Of a stretch of DNA of 33,751 nt, positions 10,155 through 33,751 are shown piece by piece. The position numbers and the translations under genes are program-made. Numbering within the stretch: position 1 is the first letter of the stretch; each line of letters starts with the position of its first letter. Source of the stretch: a virus; IMG/VR virus record IMGVR_UViG_3300035199_000282, positions 1 to 33,751 of that record. One strand, written 5' to 3'. The notes beneath the pieces were generated by a model that had not been told where the DNA came from, made no database searches, and saw only the letters and a program-made list of their open reading frames with translations.

Positions 10155-10463
10155 ATGAGCAGCGACGAGAAAAACACGAGCTGGCGCCAGTCCCTGATCG
10201 GCCCGATCGTGACTGTCGTTTTTCTGGCTGGCGGCGGGTGGGTGACTCTCGACGCTGTCGCCCAGGAGTCCGAGGATCTGACCGAGCGGATCGAGTTTGT
10301 CGAAACGAAAGTCGGACAGCAACAGGTGATCGAGATCAAAGTCGAGCAGGTCGAAAAACGACTGGAACGGCTCGAAACCTCGATCGAAAAACTGATCGAA
10401 ATCCAGCAGCAACAAGCCCTGTCAACGGCCCGGATCTGTACCGCAACCGGCGCCGATTGCTGA
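10155..10463 (+). CDS. Single-span coiled-coil membrane protein, lysis cluster
   Basis: 102 aa from ATG 10155 (GTG 10149 would add two residues). A hydrophobic segment near residues 16-35 (GPIVTVVFLAGGGWV) is followed by a long heptad-like acidic/basic helix (residues about 40-88), ending with TATGADC. This N-in, C-out single-span coiled coil is typical of phage proteins near holin and spanin genes. It is the last gene of the lysis cluster; beyond it lies the non-coding junction with repeat element A. Confidence 0.55.
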   Translation: MSSDEKNTSWRQSLIGPIVTVVFLAGGGWVTLDAVAQESEDLTERIEFVETKVGQQQVIEIKVEQVEKRLERLETSIEKLIEIQQQQALSTARICTATGADC

Positions 10464-10650
10464 ACGCAACGTCAAGTCCTGGAAGCCTTCGTAAACGCTG
10501 GACGGAAAGCCATTCTGCGTTTCGAGGTATGGGTGTTGTCAGCACACAGAGTCGAAATGAAAAAGCCTTGTGGACCCCTTAGCGGGCGATTACGGGCCTG
10601 TGTAGTTATTCCAGTTTTGACTTGGGTTTTCGCCAGGTCCGGGGGTTTTT
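10464..10650 (+). other. Non-coding junction with repeat element A
   Basis: 187 bases between the lysis and early modules. It contains the first copy of a 119-nt element (10502-10620); the rest has no convincing gene. The final 30 bases hold a G-run (10640-10645) that can serve as ribosome site for the GTG start of the Dam gene. Confidence 0.7.
10502..10620 (+). repeat. Repeat element A (partner 30712-30830)
   Basis: Aligns without gaps to element B at a constant offset of 20,210 bases: 100 of 119 positions match and 10507-10549 is 43 of 43. G+C is about half (64 of 130 over 10501-10630, hand count), well below the flanking genes. TTTCGA (10520-10525) can pair with TCGAAA (10552-10557), or its GCGTTTCGAGG surroundings can pair imperfectly with 10486-10498. 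Function unknown: a structured RNA, regulatory site or small mobile element are all possible. Confidence 0.85.
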
Positions 10651-11079
10651 GTGGCTGATCTTGCTGTTCATTTTTCTTCAAAATCCGACGCCTGGTCGAC
10701 GCCGATCGACCTGTTCCAACGGCTCGATCTGGTGTGGAATTTCACACTCGATGTCTGCGCCGATGAGTCCAACCACAAGGTCGATCGCTACTTCACCAGG
10801 GAGATCGACGGCCTGGCGCAGACCTGGTCCGGCGAGGTCTGCTGGATGAATCCACCCTACGGTCGGGAGATCGGCGCGTGGATGCGGAAGGCCCACGACG
10901 AGAGCCTGGCCGGCGCAACCGTGGTCTGTCTGGTACCGGCCAGGACCGACACGGCCTGGTGGCATGACTACGCGATGCGAGGCCGGATCGAGTTTCTACG
11001 CGGCCGGCTCCGGTTCGGGAACGCCAAAAACTCCGCGCCGTTTCCGTCGGCGGTCGTCGTGTTTCACCCGCTGCCATGA
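10651..11079 (+). CDS. dam: Phage DNA N-6-adenine methyltransferase (Dam family)
   Basis: 142 aa, GTG start, matching the short phage Dam family throughout. It begins with FSSKSDAWSTPIDLFQRLD, then FTLDVCADESNHKVDRYF, the motif IV active-site phrase MNPPYG (about 67-72), and later VCLVPARTDTAWWHD and GRLRF. It should transfer a methyl group from S-adenosylmethionine to adenine, with GATC the usual target of this family (established knowledge, not proven here). It stands alone between element A and the early promoter. GATC is strongly over-represented in this genome, so methylation could protect phage DNA or mark its age. Confidence 0.9.
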   Translation: MADLAVHFSSKSDAWSTPIDLFQRLDLVWNFTLDVCADESNHKVDRYFTREIDGLAQTWSGEVCWMNPPYGREIGAWMRKAHDESLAGATVVCLVPARTDTAWWHDYAMRGRIEFLRGRLRFGNAKNSAPFPSAVVVFHPLP

Positions 11080-11108: not shown

Positions 11109-11132
11109 AATGAAATGACCAATGAAATGACC
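11109..11132 (+). repeat. Tandem 12-bp direct repeat upstream of early promoter
   Basis: AATGAAATGACC occurs twice back to back (11109-11120 and 11121-11132), ending 8 bases before the -35 box of the early promoter. Position and perfect repetition suggest an activator or repressor binding site; no protein can be assigned, though the winged-helix/RHH protein at 15268 is a candidate. Confidence 0.55.
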
Positions 11133-11140
11133 CATGGGTG

Positions 11141-11169
11141 TTGCACAGTTTTGCGCGGTGGAGTATAGT
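11141..11169 (+). promoter_or_regulatory. Early promoter P1 (sigma70-like)
   Basis: TTGCAC (11141-11146), 17 bases, then TATAGT (11164-11169), predicting a start near 11176, about 50 bases upstream of ATG 11225. It lies in the largest gap before the early gene array and points along it. The upstream-open frame of the 11225 gene would run through this promoter, which supports the internal ATG as the true start. Confidence 0.65.
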
Positions 11170-11224
11170 TCTGGTGTGGCCGGGAAATGAGCCGGCCCTT
11201 CACAACCAAAACCGGAGCCCCAAA

Positions 11225-11704: not shown

Positions 11705-11778
11705 ACAACCAACCAACCAACCAACCCACAACCAACCAACCCACAACCAACCAACCAAACCAAACCAGGAGCCCCAAA
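11705..11778 (+). repeat. AACC-repeat leader, 5+3+3 units
   Basis: AACC units at 11707-11726 (5), 11730-11741 (3) and 11745-11756 (3), separated by CAC-type interruptions, then CCAGGAGCCCCAAA leading to ATG 11779. The leader is nearly free of G and of predicted pairing. An ATG at 11701 overlapping the previous stop is in frame with 11779, so a fused N-Q-P-T-rich form could also be made. Confidence 0.85.
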
Positions 11779-12234
11779 ATGGCCAACCCCCAAACGACGA
11801 CAGCCCCCACGATCACTCTCCGCCGGATCAGCGCCGGACACTACCAGACGCCCTGCGGCCGTTTCGACGTTTGCCGGGTCGATTACGACCGCAACTTTGG
11901 ATACGGCCTGTCAGGCTGGTACTGGTCGGAAAACGACGCTCCAGGAGCCGACGATCATTTCGGCACAATGAGAGCGGCCCGGACGGCTCTGGCCTTCCAT
12001 ATGGCCGCCGAGGACGCCCCGGATCTATCCACCTTCGCTATCGAGATTAGGGCCTGGCGATGCGCCCAATTGAGCAGCTATCCTCCCCGCGACTCCGTCG
12101 ACGTCCAGGCGATCAGCTACGAAGCCGCGAAGGCGAAGCTGCTGGCCTGGGCCGCCCAACTTGGATGGAACGTCGAGATCATCAGCGGCCGCCAGGTCGA
12201 CGCGCCACGGCCGGCTGGAGTGCTGGTCAAATGA
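11779..12234 (+). CDS. Early orphan protein, paralogue of the previous gene
   Basis: 151 aa. AGGAG at 11767-11771, seven bases before ATG 11779. The N-terminal half (TLRRISAGHYQTPCGRFDV... GYGLSGWYW) is a compact beta-type domain rich in aromatic residues. The C-terminal half (SVDVQAISYEAAKAKLLAWA... EIISGRQVDAPRP) duplicates the C-terminus of the gene before. No known family. If translation begins at ATG 11701, a 26-residue NQPT-rich extension is added. Confidence 0.75.
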   Translation: MANPQTTTAPTITLRRISAGHYQTPCGRFDVCRVDYDRNFGYGLSGWYWSENDAPGADDHFGTMRAARTALAFHMAAEDAPDLSTFAIEIRAWRCAQLSSYPPRDSVDVQAISYEAAKAKLLAWAAQLGWNVEIISGRQVDAPRPAGVLVK

Positions 12235-12283
12235 ACAACCAACCAACCAACCAACCAACCAACCCACGAACAGGATCCCTACC
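12235..12283 (+). repeat. AACC-repeat leader, 7 units
   Basis: Seven perfect AACC units (12237-12264) after the stop of the upstream gene, then CCACGAACAGGATCCCTACC before ATG 12284. The ribosome site is weak (AGGA). An ATG at 12231 overlapping the previous stop is not in frame with 12284 (53 bases apart), the only case of five where this is so; one more or one less repeat unit would change that relation. Confidence 0.85.
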
Positions 12284-12517: not shown

Positions 12518-12876
12518 GCGGCGCAGTACCTGACGCCGTCCAGCGAGTCGTCGACGCTTGGAAAGCGAACGCGGCCGAGGCGGGGATGCCAGAGGACGCG
12601 TGCTGCGTCAGCCACGCGCCGAGCGAATCCCGCGCCCATTATGGGCCGTACTACCTCGACCCATGGGGAGCCCCTGACCGCGACATTCTCGACCAAGAGG
12701 AAGAACAGCCAGCCTGGATCGTGTGTTGCAACTACGAAAGAGCCGATCTGCACCTGACCTACTTTCCACAGGACGGCCGCTGGCTTTACTACGCGCGGAA
12801 CCGCGAGTCCTCCAACCTGATCAAAGGTGGAACGGCTGAGGCCGTCGCCAACGCCGAAATCGTCTACACGGGGTGA
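12514..12876 (+). CDS. Early orphan protein
   Basis: 120 aa, soluble, acidic, aromatic-rich (AHYGPYYLDPWG, HLTYFPQDGRWLYYARN). It starts on an ATGA overlap with the preceding gene (GGGGGTGACGC as ribosome site), so translation is coupled. A Cys pair (DACCVSH) and ICC-type pair (IVCCNYE) are visible but no recognised metal-binding motif. Function unknown. Confidence 0.7.
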   Translation: MSGAVPDAVQRVVDAWKANAAEAGMPEDACCVSHAPSESRAHYGPYYLDPWGAPDRDILDQEEEQPAWIVCCNYERADLHLTYFPQDGRWLYYARNRESSNLIKGGTAEAVANAEIVYTG

Positions 12877-12882
12877 CGCATG

Positions 12883-12945
12883 AGCCAAACCAACCAACCA
12901 ACCAACCAACCAACCAACAACCAACCCACGAACAGGAGGCCCAAA
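12883..12945 (+). repeat. AACC-repeat leader, 7+2 units
   Basis: Seven AACC units at 12888-12915, one AAC break, two more units to 12926, then CCACGAACAGGAGGCCCAAA and ATG 12946 (AGGAGG at 12934-12939). ATG 12880, just after the upstream stop, is in frame with 12946 (66 bases), giving a possible NQPT-extended form. Confidence 0.85.
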
Positions 12946-14289: not shown

Positions 14290-15005
14290 CCCGGACCACC
14301 TGGGCGATCATCGTGACCGGGTGGATCGTGGTCGGCGCCGCCGCCTCCATGATCTGGCCGTTCGCGGCGCTGGGTTCGCTTCTGTCGGCCTTCACGATAT
14401 GTTTCATGTACCACCTGCTGGCCCTGGCCAGGGGTCGCCCACAACCAGCCAACCAACCAACCAACCAACCAACCAACCAACCAACCAACAGGGGGCCGAT
14501 CATGGCCACAACTCGAAAGGTCTGGCGCGTGACCTCCACCGCCATTGTCTCAACTCACGAAGGCGAAGGCGTCGCCGATCTCCACAACGGGATCGAAATG
14601 CTCTACCAGTGCGGGCCGATCCCGATCGAGGATCTGGAGGTCGTCCGGCTGGTTCCGGAGCCTATCCAGCCGGACTACACGGCGGCGATCATCGCCGCTC
14701 AACAGTACAGAACCGCCGAGGCCGAGGCCGACGCCCAGGCCGACGCCCAGGCCGACGCCCAGGGCGAGGACGACGGCGGCGCCGCGAGCGAGGCCAGGTG
14801 GATCGCCGGGTCAGCGTTCGGAAACCAGGGCCTGGCCGACCTGGGCGGCCTCGATGTCGAGGACGACGACGAGGACGACGACGAGGACGACGCCCAGGAG
14901 CACGAACACAACACAATGGATGGAGTGGTCGCGGCGCTGGGCTCCGCGTACCGGATCGCTGGGTTCGAGTCTGGAATGCTGGACCTCGAAGGGGGTGAAG
15001 AGTGA
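14286..15005 (+). CDS. Membrane segment fused through NQPT linker to acidic protein
   Basis: Full frame 239 aa. Residues 1-50 hold two hydrophobic segments (WAIIVTGWIVVGAAASMIW and FAALGSLLSAFTICFMYHLL). Residues about 55-70 are the NQPT linker encoded by ten CCAA units. From residue 73 (MATTRKVWR) a soluble domain follows, with three exact ADAQ repeats (14727-14762) and a run of 15 or so acidic residues (GGLDVEDDDEDDDEDDAQE). An internal ATG at 14502 with AGGGGG just upstream would yield a separate 167-aa soluble protein, so the locus may make two proteins or one fusion. The overlap with the previous stop (ATGA) favours use of 14286. Function unknown. Confidence 0.6.
   Translation: MTRTTWAIIVTGWIVVGAAASMIWPFAALGSLLSAFTICFMYHLLALARGRPQPANQPTNQPTNQPTNRGPIMATTRKVWRVTSTAIVSTHEGEGVADLHNGIEMLYQCGPIPIEDLEVVRLVPEPIQPDYTAAIIAAQQYRTAEAEADAQADAQADAQGEDDGGAASEARWIAGSAFGNQGLADLGGLDVEDDDEDDDEDDAQEHEHNTMDGVVAALGSAYRIAGFESGMLDLEGGEE
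14449..14501 (+). repeat. AACC-repeat tract, 10 units, with internal start site
   Basis: Ten perfect CCAA units (14449-14488), the longest tract here, followed by CAGGGGGCCGATC and ATG 14502. It lies inside an open frame from ATG 14286. A change of one unit would break the fusion but leave the internal ATG gene intact. Confidence 0.85.
14727..14762 (+). repeat. Three 12-bp coding repeats
   Basis: GCCGACGCCCAG three times in a row (14727, 14739, 14751), encoding ADAQ repeats in the acidic protein. In-frame unit, so copy-number change would lengthen or shorten the linker without frameshift. Confidence 0.85.
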
Positions 15006-15271
15006 TCGTCTTTGACCTTCCGGACCAGTCCTACGAAATCCACACAACCAGGATCCGGCGGGTCGTCGAGATCGTGGTCGACGTGAAGCGGATCCCAGGA
15101 ACCGCGCCGACCTGGCACCCGCCAGATCCTGGCGATCCGGACCAGTACGCGATCCTCGAAGCGAAGGGCCCAGGGGAGGGCGCCGGGTTCCGACAGCCGG
15201 TCGAGTTGACCGCCGCCGAACAGGAGCAGGCGATCTGCCAGGTGATCGAAGCCACGGAGGCGAAGCCATGA
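15002..15271 (+). CDS. Small early orphan protein
   Basis: 89 aa, soluble, starting at GTG 15002 in the GTGA overlap with the previous gene, with GGGGGTGAAG just upstream. Beta-strand rich N-terminus (IHTTRIRRVVEIVVDVKRI), then acidic and Pro-rich. It shares ATGA with the next gene. No family recognised. Confidence 0.65.
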   Translation: MIVFDLPDQSYEIHTTRIRRVVEIVVDVKRIPGTAPTWHPPDPGDPDQYAILEAKGPGEGAGFRQPVELTAAEQEQAICQVIEATEAKP

Positions 15272-15753
15272 TCCGCGACAGCCTGCCGTTCGCCAGGGGT
15301 AGCGACACAAGCGAGGCCGCCGCCGAATCCATGGTCGGCCACGCGCCGACAGTCCGGCGGCGGGTGTTCCAGTACATCCAGTCCCAGGGCGAACACGGAT
15401 CCACGGACGACGAGATCGAGCAGGCGCTGGACCTGTCACACCAGACAGCCAGCGCCAGGCGGAACCTGCTGGCGCGGGATGGCGCGATCCGTCGCATTGA
15501 CGCGAAGCGGAAAACCCGGTCCGGCCGCCAGGCTGGCGTCTGGGTCGCTGTGGACGGGTTCGACATTGACGCGAAGCGCCCAGGACGGCCCAGGAAATCG
15601 GACCAGGACCGCCGGGAGGTCAAGGTCACAGCCTACCTGGACAGGCCGCTTTACGCGGATCTGTGTTTGGCGGCTGCTGACGAGGGCCGCCCGGTTTCGC
15701 AGTTGATCCGGCGGGCCTGTGTCCGGTACCTGGCGGACAAGGGTGATACATGA
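15268..15753 (+). CDS. Winged-helix plus ribbon-helix-helix DNA-binding protein
   Basis: 161 aa. Residues about 25-95 form a winged helix pattern seen in phage regulators (VRRRVFQYIQSQGEHGSTDDEIEQALDLSHQTASARRNLLARDGAI, then the wing with RSGRQAGVWVAV). A GRPRK AT-hook-like linker follows, and residues about 118-160 resemble a ribbon-helix-helix (VKVTAYLDRPLYADLCLAAA... SQLIRRACVRYL). Likely a transcription regulator of the early operon or of its own promoter; the tandem repeat near P1 is a possible target (inference). Start ATG 15268 on the ATGA overlap. Confidence 0.75.
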   Translation: MIRDSLPFARGSDTSEAAAESMVGHAPTVRRRVFQYIQSQGEHGSTDDEIEQALDLSHQTASARRNLLARDGAIRRIDAKRKTRSGRQAGVWVAVDGFDIDAKRPGRPRKSDQDRREVKVTAYLDRPLYADLCLAAADEGRPVSQLIRRACVRYLADKGDT

Positions 15754-17884: not shown

Positions 17885-18198
17885 GCCCGAAACACACGGC
17901 CCGACCGGGCCTTTCTGGAGTTCAGCGACAGAACCACGACTGGATCCTGTCCTGTGGCTGTGGCTGTGGTGTCGAGTTCAGGACCCGGACCTCGAACTAC
18001 ACACAGCGAACGAACCCGGACACGGGCCGGACGAACCACGGATTCGACAAAGTCACCCGCGCCGACGCCTACGACTTGGCCAAGGCGACCGGCTGGGCGT
18101 TGCGGAAATACCGCCACGCCTGGCAGGAACGGAACCCGGCGGGCGCTGTGGTCGACCACACCGCGACCCGGGCCTGTCTGGTGTCTCCGACATGCTGA
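17881..18198 (+). CDS. Small Cys-rich early protein
   Basis: 105 aa, unrecognised. Contains a Cys cluster (SCGCGCGVEF near residues 24-33), and two more Cys near the end (ACLVSPTC), so it may bind metal. It lies between Gp157-like and RusA genes with 4-base and 7-base overlaps, so it is almost certainly translated with them. The Asn/Arg-rich middle (NYTQRTNPDTGRTNHGF) is unusual. Confidence 0.65.
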   Translation: MSPKHTARPGLSGVQRQNHDWILSCGCGCGVEFRTRTSNYTQRTNPDTGRTNHGFDKVTRADAYDLAKATGWALRKYRHAWQERNPAGAVVDHTATRACLVSPTC

Positions 18199-18821
18199 AA
18201 ACACGGAAGGAAAAACCCGGCGCCGGTATGACCTCCGACGCCGGGCACAACCAACAGGGGTCCAAACAGGGCGACCCAGGGGATCAAACGATCCAAGGTG
18301 AGGATATCACGGCCTGGACGCTTCGCCACGCTTTGACGGTTCCTGGTGAACCAGTCGGAAAGGCCAGGCCACGGTTCAACCGACGAACAGGCCAGCCATA
18401 CACGCCGCCAAAAACGGTCGAATTCGAACGCCGGATCGCGTGGCTCTGTCCGCTTCGCCCCGTGGAAGGTCCGGTCAGGGTCGAGATCCTGGCCGTGTTC
18501 ACCAGGCCGCAACGCCTGAACCGAAAGGCCGACCCGCCGGGCCTGCTCCCCTACGCGGGCCGGAACGACCTGGACAACGTGATCAAGGCGGCCAACGACG
18601 GCCTCCAGGGCCGGGCGTTCCACAACGATCGCCAGGTGGTCGACATAGTCGGCCGCGCCAGGTACGCGGAAAAGGGCGGAAAGCCGCGCCTGCAGATCGA
18701 GGTCTACGAACTGCAACCCACAACCAACCAACCAACCCACAAACAGGAAACAGAACCGAATGACACAGCCGACGATCTGGCATCCAGCGCCGCGGGGCCT
18801 GGTAATAGCCGCAGCAACTGA
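18192..18821 (+). CDS. rusA: RusA-family Holliday junction resolvase
   Basis: 209 aa from ATG 18192. The fold core starts near residue 42 (WTLRHALTVPGEPVGKARPRF), followed by TPPKT and the metal-binding acidic cluster NDLDN (about 125-129), and by HNDRQVVDI (about 144-152), with Asp 126, 128 and 146 as likely catalytic residues. It should cut Holliday junctions made by ERF-mediated annealing. The N-terminal 40 residues are not part of the family; internal starts at ATG 18228 or GTG 18299 would remove them. The C-terminus runs through an AACC tract and overlaps the next gene by 62 bases, about 35 residues longer than the family normally needs. Confidence 0.85.
   Translation: MLKTRKEKPGAGMTSDAGHNQQGSKQGDPGDQTIQGEDITAWTLRHALTVPGEPVGKARPRFNRRTGQPYTPPKTVEFERRIAWLCPLRPVEGPVRVEILAVFTRPQRLNRKADPPGLLPYAGRNDLDNVIKAANDGLQGRAFHNDRQVVDIVGRARYAEKGGKPRLQIEVYELQPTTNQPTHKQETEPNDTADDLASSAAGPGNSRSN
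18716..18759 (+). repeat. AACC-repeat leader, 4 units, inside the RusA coding end
   Basis: AACC units at 18722-18737 followed by CCACAAACAGGAAACAGAACCGA before ATG 18760. This leader overlaps the RusA C-terminus, which reads NQPT in frame. The ribosome site is weak (AGGAAA). Confidence 0.8.
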
Positions 18822-19212
18822 ACGATGGACCCGCGACCGCCCAGCGCCCGACCTGGTCGTGTACCTGTGGACCTGGTCACAGTACGACGACGGAGAACGG
18901 CCCACCCGCCGACAACTGGCCAGGCTGTTCGGGTGGACAGAACACCACGCCCGGACGCTCCTGGCTCGCGTCAGGGCCGACCACGCGGCCTGGCTCGAAG
19001 CGCACCCGCCCACGTTGAAACAGGGCCACCGCCCAAACAGTCCCTGGAACGACGAGGACTTACCGCCGCCCGCCGCCCAGATTCGCCCCGGATTCGCCGC
19101 GATCCGCCCGATCGCGGGCGCGTCCTCACAACACAACACACACACACGACAGGACCAGGTACCGGACCAGGTCCTGTCCGGAGGGGGTAGATCATGGCAT
19201 CCGAAGCCGTAG
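18760..19212 (+). CDS. Helix-turn-helix replication protein candidate
   Basis: 150 aa. Residues about 26-75 (PDLVVYLWTWSQYDDGERPTRRQLARLFGWTEHHARTLLARV) are a winged-helix/HTH unit as found in phage replication initiators or primosomal proteins (DnaD-like region). The rest is Pro- and Asn-rich and disordered. It precedes the helicase-loader-like gene, so a role in origin binding is an inference. It overlaps the RusA gene upstream (start inside) and the loader gene downstream (19 bases). Confidence 0.6.
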   Translation: MTQPTIWHPAPRGLVIAAATERWTRDRPAPDLVVYLWTWSQYDDGERPTRRQLARLFGWTEHHARTLLARVRADHAAWLEAHPPTLKQGHRPNSPWNDEDLPPPAAQIRPGFAAIRPIAGASSQHNTHTRQDQVPDQVLSGGGRSWHPKP

Positions 19213-25792: not shown

Positions 25793-26733
25793 CCCAGATC
25801 ACGAAGCGATCGATCACGACCAAGACCAAGACCCGGAACAGCCGGACGACAGTGATCGCCAGCACGGCGACCCCTGACCGCTACAACGACATTGTCGCGG
25901 GCGGCGATGCCTGGGATCTGAAGTCCTACGAAGCGAACCCGGTGATCCAGTTCGCGCACCGGTACGACACCCTGCCGATCGGGCGGGCGACCAAGCTGAC
26001 AACCGACGAGGACGGGAGCCTGATCGCGACCATCGAATGGGACACCGCTAACGAACTCGGCCGCCAAGTGGCCGAAAGTTTCGACCGTGGTTTCATGTCG
26101 GCCGTTTCAGTCGGCTTTCAACCTTCGAACGCTACCGAGCGGCGCAAGCTGCCAACAGACCACCCCGCCCACGGAGACACAGGCATGTACTTTTCAGGAC
26201 CCAACAGACTACTCGAGATCAGCGCCGTCCCGGTACCCGCAAACGGAGAGGCGCTGGCGCTTCGATCCGCTGACGGAACCACGGCCCGGAGCGTCCTGAA
26301 CGTCGAGGAGACGGAGGACACCTACGTCGTCACATACGCCAAATACAAGCCCGACGAGGCCGACGAGGCCGACGACGAGGACGCCGAGGACGTCGAGGAA
26401 ATGGCCGTGGACGACGAGGACGCCGACCAGGACGACCAGGACGACGAGGCCGAAGGCTACGCCGACGACGAGGACGCCGAGGACGAAACCGAAGCGATCG
26501 GCGACGAGGACGAGGACGCCCCGCCACCCGCCGACGACGAGGACGACGACGAGGACGACGAGGACGACGAGGACGAGGACGCCGCGAAGGCGCTCCGCCC
26601 GCTGGTCCGACAGGTCCTGCTCGAACTGCTGGGCCATGATCCGGACATTCGCCGGGCCCTGTCCAGCCGCCCACGAACGAACACCAGACCACGCGCCGAG
26701 GCGCTGGCCAACCTGTTCGGCATTGACAACTGA
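25789..26733 (+). CDS. Prohead protease with polyacidic C-terminus
   Basis: 314 aa from ATG 25789 in an ATGA overlap with the portal gene. The first 170 residues match the HK97 prohead protease: ATPDRYNDIVAGG, FAHRYD (His about 57), and MSAVSVGF (Ser about 107), with LEISAVPVPAN. Residues about 190-266 are almost only Asp, Glu and Ala, encoded by GAC/GAG-rich DNA (26356-26585). It cleaves capsid precursors; the acidic part may be a scaffold (inference). A basic C-terminal tail follows. A TTGACA at 26723-26728 near its stop could belong to a weak promoter for the capsid gene. Confidence 0.85.
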   Translation: MTQITKRSITTKTKTRNSRTTVIASTATPDRYNDIVAGGDAWDLKSYEANPVIQFAHRYDTLPIGRATKLTTDEDGSLIATIEWDTANELGRQVAESFDRGFMSAVSVGFQPSNATERRKLPTDHPAHGDTGMYFSGPNRLLEISAVPVPANGEALALRSADGTTARSVLNVEETEDTYVVTYAKYKPDEADEADDEDAEDVEEMAVDDEDADQDDQDDEAEGYADDEDAEDETEAIGDEDEDAPPPADDEDDDEDDEDDEDEDAAKALRPLVRQVLLELLGHDPDIRRALSSRPRTNTRPRAEALANLFGIDN

Positions 26734-29712: not shown

Positions 29713-30221
29713 TGGCAACGATCACCGTAGAGGAACTGTCCGAGCGCCTGAAGAAAACCAGCCGCGGCGCGTTCCTGGCGGCGCTCCACTCGCTCGCCCT
29801 GGACTACGCGGCCGAGGCCCAGACCCGCGCCTACGGCCGCGCCACGACGCTTCTGACGCGTCGGAGCGGCCGGCTGTCCGGAAGCATCGTCGGCCGCGTT
29901 CAGAAGCGCCCTGGCTACATCGCCGTCCGATTGTCAGCAGGTGGCGGCGGCGAGGACGTCAAGTACGCCGCGATCCACGAACACGGCGGGACGATCACAC
30001 CCAAAAAAGGAAAGTACCTACGCTTCCCCGTCAGTGACGACGCGTTCACACAGAACAACGATCCGAAAGGCGCGGGCGTTTCACGCGGCGCGGGCGGGTC
30101 AGTGTGGGCCAGCGTGCGGAGCGTGACGATCCCGGCCCGGCCGTATCTGAAACCGTCGATCGATGAAATCGAGGCCCGGATGATTCCAGAGGTCCGGCGC
30201 GTCCTGCGGGGGGTGCTCTGA
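29712..30221 (+). CDS. Neck/tail completion protein (HK97 gp10-like)
   Basis: 169 aa. The phrase YAAIHEHGGTITPKKGKYLRF followed by IPARPYLKPSIDEIEARMIPEV is typical of gp10-type virion morphogenesis proteins. It starts on a TGATG overlap and overlaps the next gene by one base. Confidence 0.75.
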   Translation: MATITVEELSERLKKTSRGAFLAALHSLALDYAAEAQTRAYGRATTLLTRRSGRLSGSIVGRVQKRPGYIAVRLSAGGGGEDVKYAAIHEHGGTITPKKGKYLRFPVSDDAFTQNNDPKGAGVSRGAGGSVWASVRSVTIPARPYLKPSIDEIEARMIPEVRRVLRGVL

Positions 30222-30691
30222 TGGGTTCCACCGAACGGACGATCCTCGAACGGATCCAGACGAACTGCCAGGCGATCGACGGGACCGGCTCCTACAATTT
30301 CGACTTTTCAGACTCTGACGCCGTGATCCTTGGAATGGAGCCAGCAGCGACCGCACCACGGGCACCAGGGATCTACATCTTCACTGTCAACTTGGACAGC
30401 CGCAGAATCAAGGGAACGACGCCCCTCAACAGCTTCACCCGTGTGTTCGTGCTCCAGGTGGATTGCTGGGTACCACGCGGATCCGGAACACCAGGGGACG
30501 CGATGCTTCGAGCCGTTGACGCGTCCAGCGACGTTATGCGGGCGCTCGAAAATGACCCTACCTGCGGAGGGGTCACACACGACCTGTCGGTCAACGCCTT
30601 GACCTATGACGGAGACGCGATCCAGATCCCCGGATACGGGGTCGCGAGCCTCCGTGTACAGTACGAATACAACGAAAAGAGGGGTGCCTGA
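30221..30691 (+). CDS. Tail terminator-like protein
   Basis: 156 aa beginning MGSTERTILERIQTNCQAI with an N-terminal helix, then beta strands (FTVNLDSRRIKGTT, FVLQVDCWVPRGS). The order connector, gp10-like, then this protein before the tube gene is that of the tail terminator. Family motifs are weak, so the call rests on position, length and strand pattern. Confidence 0.65.
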   Translation: MGSTERTILERIQTNCQAIDGTGSYNFDFSDSDAVILGMEPAATAPRAPGIYIFTVNLDSRRIKGTTPLNSFTRVFVLQVDCWVPRGSGTPGDAMLRAVDASSDVMRALENDPTCGGVTHDLSVNALTYDGDAIQIPGYGVASLRVQYEYNEKRGA

Positions 30692-30711
30692 TGGACGCCC
30701 GAAACCGTGAT

Positions 30712-30830
30712 ACGGGAAGCCATTCTGCGTTTCGAGGTATGGGTGTTGTCAGCACACAGGGTCGGACCGAAAACGCCTTGTGGACCCCTTACAAGGCGTT
30801 TGTGCGTCGGTTTGGTTATTGTAGTTTTGA
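30712..30830 (+). repeat. Repeat element B (partner 10502-10620)
   Basis: Second copy of the half-GC element (68 of 130 over 30711-30840 G+C, hand count). GCCTTGT (30775-30781) and ACAAGGC (30791-30797) form a perfect 7-bp stem with a 9-base loop, weaker in copy A. GTTTCG (30729-30734) can pair with CGAAAAC (30768-30774, one bulge) or with CGAAAC at 30700-30705. Confidence 0.85.
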
Positions 30831-30849
30831 ACCGGAAACGGGGGCGACA

Positions 30850-31011
30850 ATGCCAGGAAATAACACAGGAAAACACCAGCTCAACCGGCTGTTCCGACCT
30901 GGTCGGACGGACCTCCAGGGCGGCGAAAACTCGACCTCGATCCGGCCCGGCCAGAGTCTGGCAAGGTTGACATGCCAAGGCGCCGTAGGGGGTGACCGTG
31001 GGATGGTATGA
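30850..31011 (+). CDS. Possible small protein after element B
   Basis: 53 aa from ATG 30850 (MPGNNTGKHQLNRLFRPGR) with GGGGG five bases before. A longer frame begins on a TGATG overlap at 30691 and runs through element B, so element B may be inserted in the original start of this gene. Basic, Gly/Arg-rich; no family recognised. It overlaps the next start by about 14 bases. Confidence 0.35.
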   Translation: MPGNNTGKHQLNRLFRPGRTDLQGGENSTSIRPGQSLARLTCQGAVGGDRGMV

Positions 31012-31828
31012 CGCCGACTGGAAGTTTCGGATCCCGCTGACCGTCGCCAACCACAGCGGAGTCGCCGCGCCAGAGGGACAGATCACGATCCCGAAATCGC
31101 TGGGTAAGTTCTGGGAAAATGTTCAGGCCGACTTTGACGACGTGGTGGTCACGGCCGCCGACGGCGTCACGCTGCTCGATTGGGCGTTTCACGGGGGAAC
31201 GCCCAGCCAGGCGAACCGAACCGCCACGATCCAGATCGACGACTACGCCGTTTCGGACTTGTATGGAAATGACGCCGCGTCTGCGTCGGTCGGCGCATTC
31301 CTGTATTGGGGAAACGACGACGACCAATTGGCCAGCAGCGCCAACAACTCGATCAACATTACGACCACGCCAAAGACGGTCCACGTAGAGGTCGCCGATC
31401 CGCTGAGTTCGTCCACGGCGTTTGTGGTCCCTTGCAAGGGGATCGAGGTCGGCCAGGCATACAACCACGCCGAGTTCAGAAAACCCGCGAACGAAACGAC
31501 CCGGATCTACTGGGATCTGTCTGGCGTGGTCATGTCGCTCGCCAGGCCGAACCAGCGATCCCGACACAATGAGGAGATCGCCTACGTGAAGGCGATCATC
31601 TACGACGAGGACGGAGCGAACACAACCAGCGCGATGACCACCCTCAACAGCATCGCGATCGGCCCTGACTACGTCGTCCAAATGCCGATCACAGCGGGCG
31701 ACCACGAAAAGCGATACTCGATCCACCTGACGGCCGGCTTGGTCGACGAGGCCGGAGGCCTCCGGATCACCGATCAACGCGCTACCCTTCACGTCCGCAA
31801 CGTCGCCATTCACCCTGCCATTTCCTGA
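30998..31828 (+). CDS. DUF2341-like beta-sandwich virion protein
   Basis: 276 aa. Starts GTG 30998 after AGGGGG (GTG 30992 is the alternative and lies in the ribosome site). The N-terminus GWYDADWKFRIPLTVAN and the phrases DDVVVTAADGVTLLDW and FLYWGND follow the pattern of DUF2341-type beta sandwiches seen in surface proteins. The rest resembles a second beta domain. It lies between tail terminator and tail tube genes, an unusual position, so it may be a surface-exposed neck or tail decoration that binds sugar (inference). Confidence 0.55.
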   Translation: MGWYDADWKFRIPLTVANHSGVAAPEGQITIPKSLGKFWENVQADFDDVVVTAADGVTLLDWAFHGGTPSQANRTATIQIDDYAVSDLYGNDAASASVGAFLYWGNDDDQLASSANNSINITTTPKTVHVEVADPLSSSTAFVVPCKGIEVGQAYNHAEFRKPANETTRIYWDLSGVVMSLARPNQRSRHNEEIAYVKAIIYDEDGANTTSAMTTLNSIAIGPDYVVQMPITAGDHEKRYSIHLTAGLVDEAGGLRITDQRATLHVRNVAIHPAIS

Positions 31829-33618: not shown

Positions 33619-33751
33619 GAGAATGGCAACAGACAACGTGAAAACCTACCTGATCGAACTGGAGGACAAGGTCTCCGCCGAGTTGAAGAAAACCGCGAAG
33701 CAGGCCGACGCCCTGGAAGCGGAATTGAAGGATCTCCGAGAGGACCAGAAA
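33619..33751 (+). repeat. Terminal direct repeat identical to contig start (1-133)
   Basis: 132 of 133 bases match 1-133; the only mismatch is 127 A against 33745 C, changing Glu to Asp in the tape measure. Indicates the contig closes on itself. It also shows the true ribosome site (AGGAGG 33611-33616) of the tape-measure gene. Confidence 0.95.
33623..33751 (+). CDS. Tape measure gene start (second copy, partial)
   Basis: The first 43 codons of the tape-measure gene repeated at the contig end, with E41 read as D41. It is the same gene as 5-2557 in the circular genome, not a second gene. Confidence 0.9.
   Translation, partial: MATDNVKTYLIELEDKVSAELKKTAKQADALEAELKDLREDQK

Follow-up and report, generated by a model that had tools for sequence, protein, structure and literature searches.

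A lineage-specific, duplicated non-coding element of 119 nucleotides in a siphophage genome and its possible role as a cis-regulatory leader

The window analyzed, the whole of virus record G000 (33,751 bases), is the genome of an unclassified siphophage with a G+C content of 63.6%. Its ends overlap by 133 bp in self-comparison (1-133 vs 33619-33751, 99% identity, one mismatch), which suggests, from sequence, a complete genome with either circular permutation or terminal redundancy. Every gene that was identified lies on the + strand and the phage genome is transcribed rightward; these genes encode terminase, portal, major head protein, head-tail adaptor, neck protein, tail protein and an endolysin-like protein, and also a Dam methyltransferase, RusA, a ParB/methyltransferase and an ERF-type protein. 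Named phages are only distant kin (terminase ~27% identity), and neither the tail protein nor the gene before copy 2 of the element described below matched any of them. Relatives in IMG/VR have tail proteins at 53-59% identity, and the nearer terminases are at 57-62%. Immediately 5′ of the major head protein gene is a long acidic (Asp/Glu) repeat-coding stretch (26352-26581), perhaps part of a scaffold protein.

The two copies of the element and their identical parts are as follows:

10502..10620, + strand: element copy 1, 119 nt, located 3′ of the lysis cassette and 5′ of dam
30712..30830, + strand: element copy 2, 119 nt, inside an insertion between a tail-completion-like gene and the next gene
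10507..10549, + strand: 43-nt core of copy 1, sequence AAGCCATTCTGCGTTTCGAGGTATGGGTGTTGTCAGCACACAG, 43/43 identical to its counterpart
30717..30759, + strand: 43-nt core of copy 2
10565..10581, + strand: second identical block, 17 nt, sequence GCCTTGTGGACCCCTTA, counterpart at 30775-30791

The copies align ungapped over 119 positions, 100 of which are identical, a similarity far above chance (self-BLAST E 1e-30). The window has no other full copy. Their G+C contents are 49.6% (copy 1) and 52.1% (copy 2), ~12 points below that of the window. Alignment thus confirmed the original prediction of a two-copy, 119-nt element of near half G+C with a fully identical 43-nt core, and the proposed concentration of identity at the left also held: with the 19 mismatches placed at random, an identical run of at least 43 had p = 0.0016. 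The right part had been described as merely diverging, but it contains the 17-nt identical block (p = 0.06 given the mismatches of the right part alone). Inside the core is a near-palindrome, GTGTTGTCAGCACAC. As to the proposal that the core is constrained, the concentration of identity is significant, but constraint is not thereby established; the left core is probably constrained, although gene conversion between the two copies is a possible source of its identity instead, and the two are inseparable because there are only two copies and no homologue elsewhere.

Homologues and known identities were sought in several collections. No known RNA family matched the window at the Rfam 15 gathering score, and with a permissive threshold nothing below E = 1 was found in either element region. 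Phage and plasmid records gave nothing significant, and the element was absent from relatives and from 872 kb of retrieved loci. The blastn matches to mycobacteriophage minor tail genes (20-26 nt, E 0.5-2) and to a single plasmid (E 5) were at chance level. Exact patterns of the core and the block had no match in IMG/VR, a 28-nt exact pattern of the core had none in GTDB genomes (85k genomes), and the one gapped match, in L042 (32% G+C), had in common with the element only the pattern's own letters. The earlier remark that no known RNA or insertion element is recognizable is in line with these scans. A diversity-generating retroelement (template and variable repeats) was rejected since the mismatches are not restricted to adenines of one copy; an attachment site, since a pattern-based search of GTDB genomes found no prophage relative and the window has no tRNA (or tmRNA); and a transposon, since there are no terminal repeats, the inverted repeats being an internal 11-bp hairpin and one 9-nt pair that are not at the ends.

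Copy 1 lies 38 nt 3′ of the last lysis-region gene, which ends at 10463, and 30 nt 5′ of dam, with the following features downstream:

10641..10653, + strand: GGGGG-TTTTT-GTG, Shine-Dalgarno-like run and dam start, read from sequence
10651..11079, + strand: gene for a Dam-type N6-adenine DNA methyltransferase (start GTG 10651; phrog_111, E = 1e-52)

Lysis-region genes up to this point are conserved in relatives, and the DNA beyond varies among them. Within the contig stretches compared, dam was absent from this site in relatives; this search had no positive control of its own, and a separate search with the Dam protein recovered dam from L001, the locus of the window itself. Among ~80 close dam genes, none carries the element nearby. 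In relative L035, a hairpin followed by a T run was read by eye at the position of copy 1. Another related phage, L049, has GAAATTAAGTTTTGGCTC-like repeats that form an AT-rich array in two separate places (10517-10875 and 18697-18965), one of them directly 3′ of the lysis cassette, where the window has copy 1.

At the site of copy 2, the features are:

30696..30997, + strand: lineage-specific insertion, ~302 bp, where relatives read ...TGATGGC(A/T)TGG... or similar without the insert
30771..30801, + strand: perfect 11-bp hairpin AAACGCCTTGT/ACAAGGCGTTT, in copy 2 only and largely broken in copy 1
30840..30852, + strand: GGGGG-CGACA-ATG, Shine-Dalgarno-like run and start of the 53-aa ORF, read from sequence
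30850-31011, + strand: possible 53-aa ORF after copy 2 (53 codons, start ATG 30850), no homologue

The insertion is flanked by the end of the head-tail connector genes and the start of the tail genes. The site is empty in about a dozen related phage contigs, namely those with both genes (L003, L005, L006, L007, L009, L010, L012, L014, L015, L016, L017 and duplicates), in which the tail-completion-like gene runs directly into, or overlaps, the gene after it (TGATGG): the homologue of 30221-30691 ends within a few bases of, or overlaps, the start of the homologue of 30998-31828. L012, for example, reads GGGGTGCCTGATGGCTTGGCTTGG, while the window has TGATGG at 30690-30695, then ~302 extra bases, then GTGGGATGG (30998). 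The insertion therefore parts the next gene from its ancestral start, TGATGG; that gene has thereby lost its overlapping start and gained a new Shine-Dalgarno sequence and start; the remainder of the insertion 3′ of the element is 30831-30997. Both copies had been placed at junctions after the end of a gene cluster, which is correct, with the amendment that copy 2 is located within inserted DNA, between two genes that touch or overlap in the relatives whose contigs cover both sides of the junction. Comparison with relatives lacking the element, proposed with the original prediction, places it in lineage-specific DNA. The element is genuine, lineage-specific, duplicated and non-coding.

That the element is a fragment of a protein-coding gene is most improbable. 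A + frame is open across the whole copy 2 insertion (106 codons, with an ATG overlapping the upstream stop), the resulting ORF, 30691-31011, spans the insert exactly, and in copy 1 the corresponding frame runs for 26 codons without a stop. However, a TAG at 10580 interrupts the frame in copy 1, the mismatches favor no codon position (6/7/6), an open stretch of that length arises in 6% of shuffles when this frame alone is counted and in 17% when any of the three frames counts, and there is no protein homologue.

The copy 2 hairpin (local z about -4) could also mark a terminator or attenuator at cluster ends, acting between head and tail genes in copy 2 and ending the late operon in copy 1. The perfect 11-bp stem and the L035 hairpin with its T run agree with such a role, but the hairpin is mostly broken in copy 1, no U-run directly follows it, and the most conserved part of the element is the core, not the hairpin; this explanation is very unlikely.

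A structured cis-acting RNA was considered as well. The put RNA of phage HK022 is a two-stem-loop of ~70 nt located downstream of an early promoter. An RNA of this kind in the window would form two adjacent hairpins on the 5′ side of the element; polymerase bound by them during elongation would then read through in late and dam transcription. The consensus fold consists of two abutting hairpins (columns 2-16 and 17-58), and 3/4 stem mismatches keep pairing, stem position 19/56 being broken. HK022 putL and putR are likewise antiterminator RNAs present as two similar copies per phage genome (PMC9378689), and two hairpins can be drawn for the element too. For the element, the fold is without statistical support and the Rfam search was empty. 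Alignments with shuffled columns folded as well as the real one (z -0.57 over the first 60 nt, +0.63 over the full length), single-copy folds had z-scores of -0.39 and -0.88, and there was no compensatory pair or covariation. A sigma70 consensus scan found no promoter just 5′ of either copy, in contrast to put, the early promoter-like site at 11135 being 3′ of copy 1. We consider an RNA of this type quite unlikely.

The same consensus scan found no sigma70-like promoter in either copy, the best -35 being TTGTCA with no -10. Two features beyond dam are:

11134..11169, + strand: early promoter-like site, TTGCAC-17-TATAGT, with ATGGGTGTTG...CACAG common to the element core
15268-15753: weakly ribbon-helix-helix-like phage protein

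The first, an early sigma70-like promoter at 11135-11169 that the scan gave as TGCACA-16-TATAGT, belongs to a set of four sigma70-like sites found on the + strand. The element core has ATGGGTGTTG, a 6-nt gap and CACAG, with a counterpart at 11134 in the intergenic stretch 5′ of the early genes. In the window, TGGGTGTTG occurs only three times, in both copies and in this early promoter; 0 of 100 shuffles reached three occurrences, two of the three being homologous by definition. The best gapped match of the core outside the copies is this early promoter region (p = 0.006 vs shuffles of the region). The similarity, noticed post hoc, is a lead to what may be a partial third match.

Five (CAAC)n tetranucleotide arrays (11706-11767, 12236-12263, 12891-12918, 14450-14489 and 18721-18736) each end ~10-40 nt 5′ of the Shine-Dalgarno sequence and ATG of an early-region gene. 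No array of at least 4 units was present in ten stretches of related contigs; the arrays could be unstructured translation leaders or slippage-prone repeats. In L049, five sigma70-like promoter-plus-leader modules of ~90 nt lie 5′ of early genes (11114-11206, 12000-12096, 12520-12640, 18005-18117 and 18297-18390), with the sequence TATTATATATGTATAGA(C/A)AGGGAG, also given as TATTATATATGTATAGACAGGGAG...ATG. These modules show that repeated leaders occur in this phage group.

The start-associated sequences (SAS) and extended SAS of cluster K mycobacteriophages, in which a 13-bp sequence, GGGATAGGAGCCC, is present at 11-19 copies per genome and is conserved across the cluster (PMC3203893), resemble the element as repeated intergenic phage sequences in the same orientation just 5′ of translation starts. 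Unlike SAS, the element is 119 nt long and is found as two copies in one genome; the SAS consensus had four matches in the window at 3 mismatches, fewer than the chance expectation.

The dam gene is a typical accessory gene. As with phage morons, the copy 2 DNA is an addition that separates two genes found side by side in relatives, and dam is absent from the copy 1 site in relatives. Morons carry their own promoter and terminator; for the inserted DNA the consensus scan showed no sigma70-like promoter, and the cargo of copy 2 is doubtful. The insertion is also like the mycobacteriophage mobile elements MPME1 and MPME2 in its small size, its location close to where a phage gene begins and its definition by the empty sites of relatives (PMC3029335). 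MPME1 has a length of 439 bp, does not vary from phage to phage and has inverted repeats at its borders (PMC3029335), unlike the insertion in the window, which is ~302 bp, has no terminal inverted repeats and has only its 119-nt part common to two sites.

The main rival of a regulatory leader is a non-functional fragment: the copies would be remnants of foreign or mobile DNA, or of one illegitimate duplication, with the core kept identical by recombination. The lineage specificity of the insertion, the G+C content ~12 points under that of the genome, and the lack of similar sequence elsewhere in the pattern scans and the loci compared all fit this account. Against it, a single conversion tract does not explain the second 17-nt identical block beyond the core, the copies are alike in orientation and in position relative to a Shine-Dalgarno sequence and start, and there are no terminal inverted repeats. 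We regard a non-functional fragment as unlikely, yet a serious contender.

Our tentative preference, to which we give somewhat less than an even chance, is a leader or operator with a cis-regulatory role, duplicated and specific to this lineage, that resides on "moron-like" inserted DNA. The element would be an upstream module, non-coding and richer in A+T, that reached two sites together with inserted DNA: ahead of dam, and ahead of the small ORF and tail genes. The 43-nt core would most likely work at the DNA level, bound by a transcription protein of the phage or the host, and we infer that it acts as an operator or promoter-upstream element through protein binding and control of transcription. 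Next in the 3′ direction come the other conserved block, a Shine-Dalgarno run and then a start codon. Both copies are indeed in the same orientation and are followed by GGGGG-N5-(G/A)TG, which is weak evidence for a leader because such runs of five G are common Shine-Dalgarno sequences in this phage. Confidence in the mechanism is moderate to low, with two copies and no relatives of the element to go by.

There is a slim chance that the element represents a new class of cis-acting control in phages, either a protein-free RNA antiterminator or an operator for a phage-coded switch protein, which moves within the lineage and puts acquired genes such as dam under phage control. If it is not functional, it is a lineage-specific duplicated fragment. 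If it is functional, the phage would bring genes that it has newly acquired under its control through the copying of a single leader module. The exactly defined empty site makes this a small, clean case that is testable either way.
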